Below, one piece after another: positions 43,702 through 51,315 of a stretch of 64,000 nucleotides of DNA. Position 1 is the stretch's first letter; each line of letters starts with the position of its first letter. This DNA comes from an uncultured Bacteroidota bacterium. Lineage in GTDB: Bacteria; Bacteroidota; Bacteroidia; B-17B0; Aurantibacillaceae. The notes below the pieces were generated by a model. The model saw nothing but the letters and a program-made list of their open reading frames with translations, was not told the DNA's origin and ran no database searches. Both the position numbers and the translations under genes were made by a program. Location of the stretch: positions 124,001 through 188,000 of the forward strand of contig CAITNS010000079.1 of the NCBI GenBank assembly GCA_903893815.1, given 5' to 3'.

Positions 43702-43939
43702 TTAGTGATTATTGGCTACAAAAAATAAATGATTTGAGTATTACTATTTAACATAATGTTAATTATAAGTTATTTATAAATCGCAAGTTATTAATAATCA
43801 GATGGCTAATATTAAACGACTAATGTGCTAAACGCATTTTCGTGACTTATTTTTGCCACCGTATTAATCCCGTAAGATTAATGAAATAGCTCTTAATTAT
43901 TCTATTTCATTATTGTCTTATATAAAAATTATAAGAAGT

Positions 43940-44989
43940 ATGAAGTTATCCATGTTCAAATTTAATTTGCCAAAAGAATTGTTGGCAGAATATCCTTCCA
44001 AAAATCGCGACGAAAGTAAATTAATGGTTGTTGATCGCGCCACAGGAAAAATTAGTCACAAAAAATTTAAAGACATTATCAATTATTTTGATGATGGCGA
44101 TGTAATGGTATTAAATGATACCAAAGTATTTCCAGCTCGTATGTATGGAAATAAAGAAAAAACAGGTGCTAAAATCGAAGTGTTTTTATTACGCGAATTA
44201 AACGCTGAAAGTCGTTTATGGGACGTTTTAGTTGACCCAGCTCGTAAAATACGTATTGGAAATAAATTATATTTTGGAGAAAACGATAACGTTGTTGCTG
44301 AAGTAATTGATAATACAACTTCAAGAGGAAGAACATTACGTTTTTTATTTGATGGCCCTTACGAAGATTTCAGAAAAGCACTGTATGACTTAGGAGAAAC
44401 TCCTTTACCAAAATACATTAAACGTGAGGTTGAAGAAAGCGATATTGAACGTTACCAAACGGTATTTGCAAAGCACGAAGGTGCTGTGGCTGCCCCTACT
44501 GCTGGTTTACATTTTAGCCGCGAATTGTTAAAGCGTTTAGAAATTAAAGGCATTAACTACGCTAGCGTAACTTTACACATAGGTTTAGGAACGTTTAGAA
44601 TGGTTGAAGTGGAAGATTTAACCAAGCACAAAATGGATAGTGAAGAAGCGATTATTACAGAAGAATCTTGTAAAATTATCAATAACGGAAAAGACAAAAA
44701 GAAAAAAGTGTGTGCAGTTGGAACAACCGTAATGCGTGCTTTAGAATCATCTGTTTCTACAACGGGACATGTAAATCCATACAGTGGCTGGACAAATAAA
44801 TTTATTTTTCCTCCTTATGATTTTTCTGTTGCAAATTGTATGATTACTAACTTCCATATGCCTGAATCTACTTTGTTAATGCAAGTAGCAGCTTTTGGTG
44901 GTTATGATTTGGTTATGAAAGCATACAAAGAAGCAATCAAAGAAAAATACCGTTTCTATTCTTATGGAGACGCTATGTTGATTTTGTAA
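43940..44989 (+). CDS. queA: S-adenosylmethionine:tRNA ribosyltransferase-isomerase
   Basis: The ATG at 43940 gives 349 residues and the usual start [15 protein letters not shown] a few codons in; an upstream TTG at 43913 would add nine unlike residues. Conserved QueA blocks are present: [69 protein letters not shown] and [11 protein letters not shown]. It transfers and rearranges the ribose of SAM onto preQ1 in tRNA to give epoxyqueuosine, the penultimate step of queuosine formation. It stands alone, with two overlapping small hairpins (43863-43911) in its leader and a terminator after it. Confidence 0.97.
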
Positions 44990-45012: not shown

Positions 45013-45043
45013 AAAAGCCATAACGAGAGTTGTGGCTTTTTTT
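45013..45043. terminator. Terminator between queA and the convergent GT39-like gene
   Basis: AAAAGCCATAAC (45013-45024) pairs with GTTGTGGCTTTT (45029-45040), with one G-T pair and a 4-nt GAGA loop, followed by a T-run. The A-run on the left makes it potentially bidirectional; it ends at the stop codon of the minus-strand gene. Confidence 0.85.
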
Positions 45044-46481
45044 ATTGATAAAAAGTAATTTTTACACCTTTGTAAAATGACACCACAGAGTTAGAAGATT
45101 TCTGTTTAGATAAATTAGTTTTAAATTCAGTATCTTCAGGATTTAAATCTTCAAATGCATCAACAACAATAACTCTTTTATAGTTAGTTAAATCAACCCC
45201 AATGTCCGCCAATGATTTGCAGATTAGTACATTTGGAGCATTGGTTAATTTCTTTTTTTGAAGTTTTAAATAATCCTTTTCATAATAATAGCAAAATAAT
45301 GATGGTACCGCATTAAATTTCACTATGATTAAATCCTCAGCTTTTGTTATTTGTTTTATGAAACCAACGGCATTTTTATAATCCATTGGTTTAGTAGTTT
45401 TATAATCTATTTTAAAAGAGAAGTAGATAAAAAACAACATAAAAAAAATGATGCCGATATATTTATTTTTTAGAAACGAAAAACCGTAGGCAACTAAAAT
45501 GTAAATAAAAGGAACTGCAAATATTAAATATCTATCTAAGAATATAGAAACTTTTATGCCAACTATATAAACTATAACAATTGAACCTAATCCTACAATG
45601 ATTGAATAAATAGCAGCAAAATTTGATTCTTTGGTTTTGTATTTATAACTCAATACGAGTCCCAAAGCAATAGCAAGTAGTAATGGAATAATTAAATAAT
45701 AGTCAAAGAAAAAATCAGAAAGTACTTCTAATAAGTATGAGAACTCTGATTTTTTTAGCCAGAATACACTACCTGGACTATTGAATGCAAATATTAGTAA
45801 AAACTGTTTTTTAGTAAATCTTATTAATATTAATACGATTGTTATAAGTAATGAATATGAAAATTTAATTTTTTGTTGCTTGTCAAAATAAAACAACATA
45901 AACAATACTTCAAACACTAAAACTAATCCTGCAATGTAATGCGTATAGACTATTAAGAAATTTACTAGGCCCAATATACAAATATGCTTCCAAGTATTTT
46001 TTTCTTTAAAATTTAAAAAGAAATATGATGACACTAAAACTAATAAACCAATTAAAGCATATGCCCTAGCCTCATGTGAATAGAAATAAAGAAAATTGTT
46101 TGATAAATATAAAAATGAAACAACTATAGCTGTTGTTTTATTAAAAAACTTATTTGCTATTAAGAAAATAACGCCAGCTGATAATGAGCTAAAAATAACA
46201 CTTAATAGTCTTACACAATACTCAGAATCATTAAATAGTTTAATCCATACACTTAAACAATAATAATAAAACGGAGGATTATTGTCCCATTCTGAAACAT
46301 GTTTGATATGTCCAAAATTTAACCATGCACTTTCAACGCTAACAATTTCATCGTACCAAAAAGATGAAAAATCTAATTGAATGACTTTAAATAAAATATT
46401 GACTAAAACAATGATTAAAAAATATAACCACAAGCTATTGGTTATTTTTTTGGAGTTATTAGCAAAAAACTTGTCTAACAT
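45042..46481 (-). CDS. GT39-like membrane glycosyltransferase (ArnT/PMT family)
   Basis: The 479-residue protein has about ten hydrophobic helices and, after the first helix, the loop SSFWYDEIVS with Asp44-Glu45, the acidic pair expected in GT39 (dolichyl-phosphate-mannose transferase/ArnT-like) enzymes. WDNNPPFYYYCLSVWIKLFNDSEY is the second conserved loop. Family members move a sugar from a polyprenyl-phosphate donor to a protein or lipid on the outer face of the inner membrane. It begins 4 bp after the T9SS cargo gene and is the last of a four-gene minus-strand unit, suggesting that it glycosylates that cargo or an associated component. The acceptor is not known. Confidence 0.8.
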   Translation of the reverse strand: MLDKFFANNSKKITNSLWLYFLIIVLVNILFKVIQLDFSSFWYDEIVSVESAWLNFGHIKHVSEWDNNPPFYYYCLSVWIKLFNDSEYCVRLLSVIFSSLSAGVIFLIANKFFNKTTAIVVSFLYLSNNFLYFYSHEARAYALIGLLVLVSSYFFLNFKEKNTWKHICILGLVNFLIVYTHYIAGLVLVFEVLFMLFYFDKQQKIKFSYSLLITIVLILIRFTKKQFLLIFAFNSPGSVFWLKKSEFSYLLEVLSDFFFDYYLIIPLLLAIALGLVLSYKYKTKESNFAAIYSIIVGLGSIVIVYIVGIKVSIFLDRYLIFAVPFIYILVAYGFSFLKNKYIGIIFFMLFFIYFSFKIDYKTTKPMDYKNAVGFIKQITKAEDLIIVKFNAVPSLFCYYYEKDYLKLQKKKLTNAPNVLICKSLADIGVDLTNYKRVIVVDAFEDLNPEDTEFKTNLSKQKSSNSVVSFYKGVKITFYQ

Positions 46482-46485
46482 ACTA

Positions 46486-47934
46486 TTATTTAATCACCGA
46501 AATTTTTGAACTACTGAGTAGGCTATTTGAATCAAAAATTTGTAATAAGTATAAGCCATCAGATAATGAAGATGTTTCGATTGTTTTTATAAATTCATCA
46601 ATTGTATTTGATAAAATAACTCTTCCATTTAAATCAATGATTTGATAATGTAAATTTTTATAATTCTTATAATTGGAAATCTTAAGATGAATATAATCAC
46701 TTGTGGGATTTGGATAAATTCCTAGCAAAATCTTAGTTTGTTCCTTTTCCTGAATACCGATGATACTTCCCCCAAAAGAACCTAAACTATCTACTTTCAT
46801 AAAAAACACGTCGTTTAAGACAGCATTATATCCATTAGTTTTTCCAACTGCCACAAATCCTTTATCTTTTGTTTTTGAAATAGAAAAAAATTCTTCATAC
46901 ATAGTTGTTCCTTCACTAAAAAAATTGACATAACCATATGAACTATTATACATATCAATTAAACCATCATAACCGAAAACTGCGTTTTTAGTAGACCCAC
47001 AATTAGCAATATTTCCATTCAAACTTTGAGCAGCACAATTATAAAATTCATCTTGATTACTAACATCTCTATAATTATAAAGAGGATTTCCTGAAATTAA
47101 ATCGTAAGTAAGGATTAATGTTTCTCGATTATTATTAATAGAAAGACTTTTTGTTGTTCCACAAATAAAAATATTTGAATTTTGTAATTGAATTATTCCA
47201 TTCCCAAAATCTTCCTTAACGCCTCCATAAAATTTACGCCACAATGTATCACCGTTTATGTCAAGTTTAATTGCCCAAACATCTCCCAAGCTATCATTAA
47301 AACTTTTTGTATAACCAGTTAAAGCATACTTACCATCAGAGGTTTGTATCACCGATTTAAATTCGTCGTCTTTTAGTCCACCAAATGTTTTTGTCCATGT
47401 TGTATCTCCATTAGCATCTGTTTTTATTACAAATCCATCAGCATTACCTTTCCCATAACTATAAGTGGTTCCTGCAATTATAAAACCTCCATCGGCTGTT
47501 GCATCCATACTATTGGCAAAATCCCAGTCGCTCCCACCATATGTTTTTTGCCAAATTAAGTTGCCAGTTTTATCTGCTTTTACTAAAAATACATCGTAAC
47601 CACCTACTCCACTTGAACTTGTATAACCAGCCATTACATAACTCGAATCAGCTAACTGTACAATACTTTTTCCAATTTCGTTACTTACTCCGCCAAATGT
47701 TTTTTGAAATTTTACCTGACCCATACTGTCAAGTTTTAATAAATACATATCTGTATTTCCTTGACCAATGCTACTAGTAGAGCCCGTAATAATATAACCA
47801 CCGTCTAAGGTTTGCTTTACATCATTACCTTCATCATAACCATTACCACCATACCTACAATAAAATTTTTTAGGTGGTTGAGCATTGGTGGCAATTCCAA
47901 TAACTAAAAACAAAATAATAATTAAAAATCTCAT
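46486..47934 (-). CDS. T9SS type A surface protein with DGGYIITG-type propeller repeats
   Basis: The 482-residue protein has a signal peptide (MRFLIIILFLVIGIATNAQ). Residues about 22-300 are repeats of about 50 residues with the pattern 'GG...DEG..V..T.DGGYIITG.T.S.G.G..D.YL.K.D..G...W.KT', probably beta-propeller blades. Residues about 400-482 (ILLGIYPNPTSDYIHLKI ... LSDGLYLLQI) form a type A T9SS sorting domain. It is presumably exported and displayed. It follows the outer-membrane barrel gene by 3 bp and precedes the glycosyltransferase gene by 4 bp, so all are probably made together. No enzymatic motif was recognised. Confidence 0.85.
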   Translation of the reverse strand: MRFLIIILFLVIGIATNAQPPKKFYCRYGGNGYDEGNDVKQTLDGGYIITGSTSSIGQGNTDMYLLKLDSMGQVKFQKTFGGVSNEIGKSIVQLADSSYVMAGYTSSSGVGGYDVFLVKADKTGNLIWQKTYGGSDWDFANSMDATADGGFIIAGTTYSYGKGNADGFVIKTDANGDTTWTKTFGGLKDDEFKSVIQTSDGKYALTGYTKSFNDSLGDVWAIKLDINGDTLWRKFYGGVKEDFGNGIIQLQNSNIFICGTTKSLSINNNRETLILTYDLISGNPLYNYRDVSNQDEFYNCAAQSLNGNIANCGSTKNAVFGYDGLIDMYNSSYGYVNFFSEGTTMYEEFFSISKTKDKGFVAVGKTNGYNAVLNDVFFMKVDSLGSFGGSIIGIQEKEQTKILLGIYPNPTSDYIHLKISNYKNYKNLHYQIIDLNGRVILSNTIDEFIKTIETSSLSDGLYLLQIFDSNSLLSSSKISVIK

Positions 47935-47937
47935 AAC

Positions 47938-49185
47938 TTATCGTTTAAATTTTTTAGCAATACTTACAAAAGCTCCTTGACCGTATGTGTTAGTTGGAGA
48001 GATATAACCTTGTAAACTATTACTTCCTATTCTGAAAAACCAAGATTTTGAAACATACGAAAATGCCAAACCTACATTTAATTTTGAGTAACCACCATAT
48101 GCCACGTGCAAAGCACCTACAATTTTTGGCGTAAAATGATACTCTGCATCTGTAAAGAAATAGGGTTTGAAGTTGGAATTAAATAAATACCTAAACCCTA
48201 CCGCTAAATAAAATTTATCAGTAAACTGAATTTTATTGATGATTAATAGATTAGTTGGGATATTTACATTAAAGGATTCTTTACGAGCATTAGTGGTTGT
48301 TTTAATGATACTATCTCTATTTATAGCCGATAAGGTTGAGTCCTGCAAATCCAATAAATTATCAATGCGGTAACCATCAAATTTAAAAGTTGAATCGCTA
48401 CTATACTGAACGCTGTTATCAAACCAATGTAAAAAGCCAATATTGTTTGCGTTTACGGTTAACACACTGCCCTTCCCTAGCTTACCTTTATAAGGTGTTT
48501 CAAAAAATATATCAGCACTAGCACCAATTCCTGAATAAGCAAACGGATTATTTTTATTGGTTGTATCACTTAACGCCATATTAAAATCTGAATTAAATAC
48601 TAATTCAGTTCCATCCGAATTGGTATATAACGAAGAACCCTCTTTTGCTTTCACATAAAATAATTGCTGGCCTTTTAAAATAGAAATAGATACTCCAACC
48701 TTTGCAGTTGTATCGATTTTATGCCATATAAATCCCAATTTTAATTCTTGAAAACGTAAAGAATTAATATTGGAACCCGCTAAATTTTTCGTTTCGCCTA
48801 AGTAGGGTTTGTTACCATAAAACACCAACTGATAAAAATCTTTGGTGTAAGCCGCATTAAAAATACGTTGATCTTTAAAACCAATTAAATAGGAGTATTT
48901 TGAGTTTCTACCAAAAAAAGCAGAAATATCATAATTCATATTTGCCCCCATCAAATTAAGAGCTTTCATCGAATTGTTTGAGGCGTCTTTGGTTTTTTTG
49001 TCAATATTACCACCATAAATAAATTTATTTAAAAGTGAGTTATAAATGCCATTTGAACCTAATTCGTACTCGCCGTTAATAGAAATGCTTCTACCAGTTT
49101 GACCAAAGTTTAGGAACTCAGAATTATACTGAGAAAAAACAGATAATGAACTAAGAATTAGAAATAGTACCAGCCGTGTTTTCAT
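47938..49185 (-). CDS. DUF5723-like outer-membrane beta-barrel protein
   Basis: The 415-residue protein has a signal peptide (MKTRLVLFLILSSLSVFSQ) and consists of amphipathic strands typical of a PorP-like/DUF5723 barrel: NYDISAFFGRN, YSYLIGFKDQRIF, YLAVGFRYLFN, VGALHVAYGGYSKLNVGLAFSYVSKSWFFRIG. It ends in the basic FVSIAKKFKR. DUF5723 proteins are often encoded with T9SS cargo and lipoproteins, as here; a porin or export-associated role is a fair inference, but not tested. Its start overlaps the stop of the upstream lipoprotein gene by one base, and the T9SS cargo gene begins 3 bp later. Confidence 0.75.
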   Translation of the reverse strand: MKTRLVLFLILSSLSVFSQYNSEFLNFGQTGRSISINGEYELGSNGIYNSLLNKFIYGGNIDKKTKDASNNSMKALNLMGANMNYDISAFFGRNSKYSYLIGFKDQRIFNAAYTKDFYQLVFYGNKPYLGETKNLAGSNINSLRFQELKLGFIWHKIDTTAKVGVSISILKGQQLFYVKAKEGSSLYTNSDGTELVFNSDFNMALSDTTNKNNPFAYSGIGASADIFFETPYKGKLGKGSVLTVNANNIGFLHWFDNSVQYSSDSTFKFDGYRIDNLLDLQDSTLSAINRDSIIKTTTNARKESFNVNIPTNLLIINKIQFTDKFYLAVGFRYLFNSNFKPYFFTDAEYHFTPKIVGALHVAYGGYSKLNVGLAFSYVSKSWFFRIGSNSLQGYISPTNTYGQGAFVSIAKKFKR

Positions 49186-50783
49186 TATTTTGCTCTAACG
49201 TTATAATTTAAATAGGCATGAACTACTAGATCTAAATAGCTATCCTCATTAATTTTTATTGGTGTTGGCTGATTTGGAAGGTATAAATAACTTACAAATT
49301 TAATTTGCTTACATTGAGTGAGGTTAGTGATTTTAGTTTTATCAAACGAGGCAATTAATTTAGAGTCTACATAATTTAACACCACATTGTTGCCATCTGT
49401 TATAGCCGACTCGATAATATTTTGACCAGGAACAAATAATGAATCAATAATTTGATTTTGATCGTTAAGCATATAGCCTTGGATTTGAGCTCTAAAAGGA
49501 TAGTTATTTCGTGTTTGCATAATAATATCGCAAGAATTAACATCATTCAACTCCTTTAATTGAGTTAAATCTACTTTCGAAAAATTAACTAAACTAAAAT
49601 AGTTCGCTGATAATGCTAATGGAATGTCCACATCAGCAATTACTTTTAAGCCTCTTCCATAAAAAGCAAAATCGTTACCTGCCGAAATATTACCCAAGGG
49701 GTTTAATGTTGCCTTAATAGAATAACCTAAATAGTTTGGTAAATTTTGTAAGAAAGGATTTAAGTTGGAATTAGATGAATTAACATTGATTTGTTTTAAC
49801 CAAGGAAAAACAGGATTTGATGGATTGTTGGTTTTGTTAGCCCTATTTACATTGATAGATTGTAACAAATTACCGGCGTTTAGAGTAACCACATTTGCGG
49901 GAGAGGTTTTAATAGATTTCATACTATTAATTGAGCTACTCATCTCGACACCAAACTCATTAATTATTCTAAAATTAATAGCCGATTGTGTAAGCATTAA
50001 ATTACTAGGACTAAAATTCCCTAAAAAACCTAGGGATGTAGAGTCTGGTCCAAACGATAAATCTTGTTGTCCAAAATAGCCTTGCACATATTCAGGTACA
50101 ATATCCACAAAAGATAATTTAATAATTAAACCTTGTCCAGGTTGTAAAGTACTAGCTACTCCAGATGGACTAGTACTTATGGTATAAGTTTGTACTAGAG
50201 TATTTACTTTATTACCTGATTGCCCGGTTAAATTAATATTGTATCCATTTAGTGGATAGGTTTTAGTAAAAGACGAATTCCCTGCTACCGTTTGGTTTAT
50301 CGTTAACAAATTGCCCCACAAAGAAGCTGAGTTTATAATGTAATTAAAATCTAAAGGTTGATTATAGGTATTTGAATATTCAACTTTTAAATATCCCGAT
50401 CTAACAATTGCTTTATTTAATTCTACTCCATTACTGACATCAAATTTAATTTCTCTATCAGTAGTAGAGGCGGCATTCGAATAAATCACTACTCCAGCAT
50501 TTAATGCTTGAGAAAATAGAAGAGTATAACCAAGTGTAACCGTAGTATCTGGTAAATTAACCAAACTATCCATGGTATAATTTATTAAATCCTTACTAAA
50601 AGCAATGTGTAATAGGCCGTTCGGGTCGGCTTGAAAAATAGTATCACCAAAAAAATTGCTAATGTTTAAATAGCTTTTTGCTAATGGTATTGCCAAATCC
50701 ACATCCCAAGTAGTTTCTTTTTTACAAGACACTACCGAAATCAATAAAAATAGACCGATTATTAATTTTTGTAAAAAACGCAT
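49185..50783 (-). CDS. Large lipoprotein of unknown function, first gene of the surface operon
   Basis: The 532-residue protein has a lipobox signal (MRFLQKLIIGLFLLISVVSC, Cys20) followed by KKETTWDVDLAIPLAKSYL. The rest is beta-rich with no motif I recognise; YNINLTGQSGNKVNT and PSGVASTLQPGQGLIIKLSF hint at repeated sandwich folds (a LEA- or Ig-like structure is possible). It is probably in the outer membrane. It heads an operon: its stop overlaps the DUF5723-like start by one base. Two further genes, the T9SS cargo and the glycosyltransferase, follow with gaps of 3 and 4 bp. A role as accessory lipoprotein of a surface display unit is inference. Confidence 0.72.
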   Translation of the reverse strand: MRFLQKLIIGLFLLISVVSCKKETTWDVDLAIPLAKSYLNISNFFGDTIFQADPNGLLHIAFSKDLINYTMDSLVNLPDTTVTLGYTLLFSQALNAGVVIYSNAASTTDREIKFDVSNGVELNKAIVRSGYLKVEYSNTYNQPLDFNYIINSASLWGNLLTINQTVAGNSSFTKTYPLNGYNINLTGQSGNKVNTLVQTYTISTSPSGVASTLQPGQGLIIKLSFVDIVPEYVQGYFGQQDLSFGPDSTSLGFLGNFSPSNLMLTQSAINFRIINEFGVEMSSSINSMKSIKTSPANVVTLNAGNLLQSINVNRANKTNNPSNPVFPWLKQINVNSSNSNLNPFLQNLPNYLGYSIKATLNPLGNISAGNDFAFYGRGLKVIADVDIPLALSANYFSLVNFSKVDLTQLKELNDVNSCDIIMQTRNNYPFRAQIQGYMLNDQNQIIDSLFVPGQNIIESAITDGNNVVLNYVDSKLIASFDKTKITNLTQCKQIKFVSYLYLPNQPTPIKINEDSYLDLVVHAYLNYNVRAK

Positions 50784-50837
50784 AACACAAACTTACCGTT
50801 TTTTAAACATAATAACAATCAAATATTTGGCAAAGTT

Positions 50838-50871
50838 TTTGTTAAAGAATGTCGGAAAAATATTACTTTTG
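50838..50871 (+). promoter_or_regulatory. Promoter of the small membrane protein gene
   Basis: TTTG (50838-50841) and TACTTTTG (50864-50871), an exact match to TAnnTTTG, are 22 bp apart. The ATG at 50878 follows. This promoter lies inside the reading frame that would start at the upstream TTG, and so favours the shorter protein. Confidence 0.6.
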
Positions 50872-50877
50872 CTTTAC

Positions 50878-51315
50878 ATGCTATATTCTTTTAGATTTTA
50901 TGTAAGTTGGATAGTTGCTGCGGTAGTTATGTACGTTGCTTTTTACTTCTGGCACGGCGTATTTTTAAATGATTTAAACCGCATTACTTTTTCAAAAGGG
51001 TTATTTTTAGGCTTAGCTGCTTTAGTTTATTTAGTGATTTCTTTAACACTTTATAGAACTTACGAATCAAAATTAATAGATAAGTATATTTCACATCCTA
51101 TGTTAAGAGGTATAGTAGCTGGCTTTATTTTAGGATTTATATTATTTGCTGTAGTGACCGTTTTAGGTATTTCGTTTTCTAAAGATATCAACTTCACCTA
51201 CATTGTTGCCGATTGTGCTTGGCAAATTGCCGAACAAGTAATTGGCGGTTTAATTATAGGATTAGGTAAAGTGTTAATATTTGAACCAATCCCTGAATTG
51301 ATGCACAAGAATTAA
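50878..51315 (+). CDS. Hypothetical membrane protein (four predicted helices)
   Basis: From the ATG at 50878 the protein has 145 residues; an upstream in-frame TTG at 50827 would give 162 but sits ahead of the promoter candidate at 50838-50871. It starts MLYSFRFYVSWIVAAVVMYVAFYFW, then has further hydrophobic helices near 30-50 (GLFLGLAALVYLVISLTL), about 80-100 (GIVAGFILGFILFAVVTVLGIS) and about 120-138 (QVIGGLIIGLGKVLIF). I do not recognise the family. It is divergent from the lipoprotein operon and convergent with rarA. Confidence 0.65.
   Translation: MLYSFRFYVSWIVAAVVMYVAFYFWHGVFLNDLNRITFSKGLFLGLAALVYLVISLTLYRTYESKLIDKYISHPMLRGIVAGFILGFILFAVVTVLGISFSKDINFTYIVADCAWQIAEQVIGGLIIGLGKVLIFEPIPELMHKN

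Follow-up and report, generated by a model that had tools for sequence, protein, structure and literature searches.

In the HMW1ABC system a secreted surface protein, a partner gene and a glycosyltransferase are gathered in one operon, according to the excerpted text of PMC5422565, and the pairing of a surface protein with a glycosyltransferase of its own is hence not a new idea; an earlier, sequence-only reading of the DNA treated here had suggested cargo-specific O-glycosylation and knew of no description of it as a module. A comparable set of genes is found in a stretch of 64,000 nucleotides (the window) on contig CAITNS010000079.1 of an uncultured Bacteroidota bacterium. Its four tightly packed open reading frames (ORFs) lie on the minus strand across positions 45042-50783, with spacers of -1, 3 and 4 bp, and re-reading of the frames gave the same genes, coordinates and spacings as before. 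They encode a lipoprotein (49185..50783; 532 amino acids), a DUF5723 protein (47938..49185; 415 amino acids) which we take to be an outer-membrane barrel, a seven-bladed SBBP/delta-60 beta-propeller with a C-terminal sorting domain of the type IX secretion system (T9SS) (46486..47934; 482 amino acids), and a polytopic GT-C glycosyltransferase with a PMT_2 domain (45042..46481; 479 amino acids). Comparison with relatives suggests that the propeller C-half changes hands together with the enzyme gene as a single cassette (45042..47214, minus strand), which is very probably a real unit.

The locus also departs from HMW1ABC, since HMW1C is cytoplasmic and modifies Asn, whereas here a polytopic GT-C enzyme stands beside a T9SS cargo, several enzyme types are exchangeable and the cargo is only a putative substrate. 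Another counterpart is PorZ of Porphyromonas gingivalis, a surface beta-propeller with a T9SS C-terminal domain that binds anionic lipopolysaccharide (A-LPS) and is complexed with outer-membrane barrels; the excerpt of the source (PMC8545088) mentions no adjoining dedicated enzyme. However, PorZ has two propellers, while the protein of the locus is predicted to form a single seven-bladed propeller with a variable half, and its model does not show the PorZ architecture; PorZ (5m11) appears only at rank 15 among the structural matches, with a low TM-score (TMq 0.36). In its predicted fold the enzyme most resembles ArnT, a member of GT83 that acts on lipid A. Likeness to ArnT and other GT-C proteins extends to the fold (5ezm being the best match), the PMT_2 domain and an invariant acidic pair (D44 E45), but identity in the structural match is about 14% and the enzyme described here sits in a propeller operon. 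Among literature titles and abstract openings, a scope that leaves out preprints and most subscription papers, no such cassette of propeller half and enzyme was found described.

A stable base and a variable slot

Relatives of the lipoprotein are present in 50 of 60 related genomes and matches to the DUF5723 barrel in 53 of them. When the survey was widened to 87 genomes of the family, the barrel was matched in 79, and the locus was examined in 77 genomes beyond the window. Lipoprotein and barrel mostly adjoin each other and the best propeller match usually comes next after the barrel; these two genes are the stable base, with the propeller usually following. The enzyme is more patchily distributed, with some match in 36 of the 60 related genomes. 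In that set, matches of at least 37% identity lie behind a propeller, and a match of 28% identity in G025 is a convergent neighbour of the propeller. The glycosyltransferase is one occupant of a variable slot and not a fixed fourth member.

From the 79 barrel-positive genomes, the window, one weak match (G064), 11 genomes without a propeller adjoining the barrel in the stretch examined and six loci at a contig edge were set aside, leaving 60 readable slots. A same-strand polytopic protein occupies 35 of them (22 of type T1, which is that of the window, 4 T2, 6 T3, 1 T5 and 2 T6), a convergent polytopic protein four, a convergent MBOAT gene with a partner gene three (G068, G069 and G071), and nothing of the kind is seen in 18. 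At least seven helices are predicted in 31 of the 35 same-strand occupants; the other four are cut short by a contig end or, in G012, by a broken frame. Among background genes of at least 200 amino acids, 12 of 217 are polytopic (8/123 and 4/94), and a binomial estimate for 35/60 (about 1e-28) ignores shared descent and serves for scale only. More telling are the sibling genomes with differing slots and the separate clusters of the types. For instance, the barrels of G070 and G069 are 92% alike while their slots hold T1 and MBOAT, respectively, and those of G062 and G072 are 95% alike with T1 versus a T3 cassette. The slot protein types form separate clusters by phmmer at 1e-8, and profiles link several of these (clusters 0-2, 94.6; 0-4, 97.4; 0-5, 91.5; 3-17, 75.8). 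PMT_2 is the family match of T2 (in G016) and T4; T3 matches PIG-V below the threshold (in G073), and T5 matches the LA_3751 family of putative glycosyltransferases at 44 bits, below the cut-off. The four-gene order that had been proposed as a search target in other genomes thus recurs in many of them, but it is not a fixed operon, since 18 of the readable slots lack an enzyme.

The association of propeller and enzyme is also seen in other comparisons. Genome-wide, the T9SS tail model has 148 matches and PMT_2 has 10, and when both coordinate lists were read the propeller and the enzyme proved to be the sole pair at most 1 kb apart, so their adjacency is more than chance. The enzyme is moreover the sole predicted protein with at least seven hydrophobic helices in the 64 kb window. 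Alignment of T1 enzymes in named records gave 22 loci, of which 20 have at least 32% identity; a propeller lies directly upstream on the same strand in 18 of these and is divergent in two (L149, L155), and the two distant loci (L161, L162) have no propeller. Going by their length, most of these records coincide with contigs of the survey and are not independent of it.

Exchange of a propeller half together with the enzyme

In the window's genus the propeller is a mosaic. Among 63 sequences the identities of blades 1 to 4 are.53,.56,.46 and.38, and those of blades 5 to 7 are.20,.18 and.35, with.22 for the sorting domain. The first part corresponds to residues 1-240 with the signal peptide (47215..47934, minus strand) and the second to residues 241-482 (46486..47214, minus strand). 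Up to residue 240, propeller pairs of the same and of different slot type are about equally alike, but from 241 on they are not; over residues 281-320, for instance, identity is 0.43 within T1, 0.67 within T2 and 0.18 for T1 versus slots with no enzyme. When labels were shuffled, the slot-type signal of blades 5, 6 and 7 and of the sorting domain was reached by 0 of 2000 shuffles each, and no clear signal was seen in blades 1-4 or in either half of the lipoprotein or the barrel (lowest 85/2000, blade 2). The boundary coincides with the joint of blades 4 and 5 in the predicted propeller (predicted local distance difference test, pLDDT, 90.7; blades at residues 33-398, C-terminal beta domain at 403-480). 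DNA identity drops inside the propeller and returns in the next conserved gene (G016-G008, G000-G008 and G000-G016).

Trees built by a quick method from 63 rows (barrel above 350 and propeller above 400 amino acids, incomplete rows excluded) agree with this division. The slot label changes 30 times on the tree of lipoprotein plus barrel, 26 times on that of the propeller N-half, and 19 times each on those of the whole propeller and the C-half. In the window's genus the C-half tree shows three clades, with support of 99, 100 and 100: the T1 clade has 11 rows, including one that belongs to another genus, the T2 clade has 3, and that of the no-enzyme or convergent slots has 6. Within genera, similarity of the C-half, with the N-half allowed for, follows the slot label (0/2000).

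The locus comprises a fixed base of lipoprotein and barrel, a constant first half of the propeller, and an exchangeable cassette, made of blades 5-7 with the sorting domain and of the gene behind them, which in most cases encodes a polytopic GT-C glycosyltransferase. Exchange with one break at the blade 4/5 joint and another past the enzyme swaps the whole cassette, so that within a genus each propeller allele is paired with its own enzyme type. The sequences themselves show this much, and propeller and enzyme are adjacent and co-inherited, within genera only.

Some genomes carry the cassette in unusual surroundings. In G001 and G014, the propeller and the T1 enzyme are found together elsewhere, apart from lipoprotein and barrel. 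G072, G081, G089 and G094 have a foreign, inverted propeller that is followed after 4 to 6 bp, or with an overlap of 8, by a PIG-V-like enzyme; between G062 and G072 identity is 0.89 for the lipoprotein and 0.95 for the barrel, and only 0.30 for the propeller. The old T1 enzyme is retained in G072 and G081 (identity to the G062 enzyme 82% and 65%, respectively, with the N-terminal motifs kept), where it is divergent from the propeller and 190-246 bp away, and hence presumably has its own promoter. A separate enzyme gene with its own promoter was the arrangement that the sequence-only reading had named as evidence against itself, and these two genomes go part of the way towards it.

The same data bear on an alternative in which diversity is merely linked: the slot would be a hotspot of recombination at which surface antigens vary in response to phages or predators, and propeller and enzyme would each diversify and travel together as neighbours, with no shared target. 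The return of DNA identity in the conserved flank past the slot, the gathering of several enzyme families and MBOAT genes there, some of them convergent, and the lack of a signature between genera would all suit it. We nevertheless consider it unlikely and rank it second among the alternatives, given that none of 18 other propellers, used as controls, has a polytopic neighbour, that propeller and enzyme left the base together in G001 and G014, and that the foreign propellers are accompanied by their own PIG-V-like enzyme.

Several observations weigh against a functional unit of propeller half and enzyme. The 18 slots without an enzyme adjoining the propeller are one, and no family can be firmly assigned to T6 and T7. 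Between genera, a shared slot label does not make C-halves more alike (0.225 with the same label vs 0.220 otherwise), and a general C-half signature for each enzyme type, sought across genera, was not found. Among T1 genomes the partial correlation of the enzyme with the C-half (0.46; 0/999 permutations) barely exceeds the value for the N-half (0.43), the barrel giving 0.08. G000 and G003 have C-halves that are 0.86 alike but enzymes that are only 0.57 alike, and G087 (T5) and G066 (T2) fall among the no-enzyme propellers in the C-half tree. Moreover, adjacency alone could make propeller and enzyme travel together. The earlier claim that the enzyme is tied to the propeller in particular is supported by its position behind the propeller in many genomes, the joint move in G001 and G014, the recurrence of other polytopic enzymes in the slot and the co-segregation of enzyme type with the C-half.

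A constant N-part, an exchanged C-part and a downstream gene that accompanies the latter also recall polymorphic toxins, which are present in Bacteroidota (PMC7073777, in its excerpted part), so that the variable half might act as an effector against which the membrane protein confers immunity. This is highly improbable. In the model the variable half is still half a propeller followed by a secretion signal, the sorting domain, with no toxin domain apparent; the genes downstream encode enzymes that belong to several families, the putative catalytic residues of the T1 enzyme are invariant, and many alleles (18/60) have no downstream partner.

Possible targets of the slot enzyme

The Pfam matches of the locus each exceed their own cut-off: PF18990 for the DUF5723 protein (2e-14), Por_Secre_tail for the propeller (1.8e-12) and PMT_2 for the enzyme (4.5e-14). 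By its sorting domain (PF18962, 47.8 bits against a cut-off of 27; TIGR04183, 40.6 bits against 23) the propeller can be classed as a T9SS type A cargo. No Pfam family was found for the lipoprotein, whose lipobox cysteine C20 is invariant in 16 of 16 aligned lipoproteins. Searches of the PDB by sequence with the enzyme, the barrel and the lipoprotein gave no significant relative.

In 25 T1 and T1-like sequences 13 columns are invariant, including D44, E45, P69, P70, R91, E137, R139, H181, R317 and Y318. The T1 model has a pLDDT of 89.1 and a predicted template modelling score (pTM) of 0.90, and its nearest solved fold is ArnT (5ezm, E 3.9e-7), followed by oligosaccharyltransferases, ALG9/ALG12 and, at rank 23, the protein O-mannosyltransferase Pmt4. 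Its domain, polytopic fold and first-loop acidic residues all assign the enzyme to the GT-C glycosyltransferases with a PMT_2 domain. The label GT39-like is apt only in part: it suits the domain, but the best fold match is ArnT. The predicted fold does not settle the acceptor.

The main rival to the explanation that we prefer is cargo-specific O-glycosylation, in which the enzyme would act in the periplasm on the propeller encoded beside it, adding sugar to blades 5-7 or to the sorting domain ahead of export by the T9SS. It would account equally for the linkage in the slot and the co-exchange of propeller half and enzyme, and there are precedents for its chemistry. As far as the excerpts of these papers go, C-terminal glycosylation of T9SS cargo is known from P. 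gingivalis and Tannerella forsythia (PMC7468200), the sorting domain of Cel9A is glycosylated in Cytophaga hutchinsonii (PMC11858162), and O-glycosylation in Tannerella follows the motif D(S/T)(A/I/L/V/M/T) (PMC8550257). Such a function is possible, and it is the one that the sequence-only reading had preferred, but we do not favour it and regard it as doubtful.

Instead, we prefer an enzyme that acts on a surface glycan. One reason is that no Ser/Thr acceptor sets the enzyme-bearing allele apart: the C-half residues invariant in T1 are nearly all common to the no-enzyme alleles, and the exceptions (N299, G307, G313 and G385) hold one Asn and no Ser or Thr. Further reasons are that D-S/T motifs are not enriched (mean 3.24 in T1 vs 3.95 in no-enzyme alleles), that the old enzyme can persist once its propeller has gone, being kept beside a foreign inverted one in G072 and G081, and that acyltransferases, the MBOAT pairs, occur at the same place, where they do not fit cargo glycosylation. 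The T9SS propeller PorZ, moreover, binds a lipopolysaccharide (LPS) polysaccharide (PMC8545088, excerpt), which is a further reason for this choice. What the PMT_2, PIG-V-like, LA_3751-like and DltB/MBOAT families seem to have in common is that they modify surface polymers, not single proteins. The best fold match, ArnT, is likewise counted in favour of a surface glycan and against the cargo.

According to the preferred explanation, the enzyme would take a sugar from polyprenyl phosphate in the periplasm and use it to modify a glycan that is lipid-linked or lies at the surface. The variable propeller half would be displayed at the cell surface with barrel and lipoprotein. This half may be matched to the altered glycan, either binding it or being anchored to it, and enzyme and propeller would change together because of this match. 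Such glycan matching, taken together with the exchanged cassette, seems to us about evenly balanced between right and wrong. A more specific version is a device of self-recognition or serotype, in which the propeller half would be a lectin and its ligand the very sugar placed on the cell surface by the enzyme from that cassette; this we think quite improbable. If it were true, cassette exchange would alter lock and key together, and could mark kin or hide cells from phages. More generally, the locus would show that one half of a T9SS cargo can be constant and the other exchangeable, and that a membrane sugar enzyme can be passed on as part of the latter. The cassettes would then be natural swap experiments, and would offer a genetic handle on the ligands of many SBBP propeller cargos in Bacteroidota and on which GT-C enzymes act on surface glycans and which on secreted proteins.

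Variants of the slot and flanking features

The MBOAT gene, which is DltB-like, and its partner of 338-340 amino acids are convergent to the propeller or near it in three genomes of genus g2 and in G005 of genus g1 (L178 5619-8035, L171, L175 and L095 3807-6220). A convergent pair of 340 and 463 amino acids was once taken for a sugar-phosphate synthase and a GT-C protein; this was dropped, the larger protein being MBOAT/DltB-like. The pair is a putative second kind of surface-modifying enzyme at the propeller locus. In a genome of another family (G043:C18; L119 130975-136512, contig coordinates), a T2-like gene and, beyond it, a T1-like gene come after the propeller, so that two GT-C types stand in a row. 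In G001 and G014 two other genes, of 299 and 261 amino acids, fill the place after the barrel that propeller and enzyme have vacated (L089, L092).

Some T1 genes and propellers deviate from the common form. The T1 enzyme of G012 (L098 7428-8874) is broken into pieces of 173 and 310 amino acids, by either decay or sequencing error, and in G024 (L102 7569-9008) the T1 frame reaches to a few bases from the propeller, yet none of its first 75 codons or so is ATG, GTG or TTG. The YPNP motif with which the sorting domain starts in g1 propellers is missing from many of those of g2, whose export or anchoring may be different.

Downstream of the enzyme gene, a terminator-like stem of 12 pairs (45013..45040, plus strand) lies between its 3' end and a convergent gene (43913-44989, plus strand), and could terminate both. 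Terminator-like sites are not above expectation (3 found, 2.2 expected), and a promoter scan was uninformative about an internal promoter (27 promoter-like sites, where shuffled sequence would give 38.2). In g2 and g8, a TPR/PD40 protein of 657-835 amino acids, with a SPOR-like end by eye, often comes next after the slot (L181 7074-9122, L198, L187, L167 and others), and the enzyme there thus sits between two conserved genes. On the other side of the locus, a small protein of about four helices (50827-51315, plus strand) is divergent from the lipoprotein and keeps its place in other genera and families (e.g. L120, L121 and L122).

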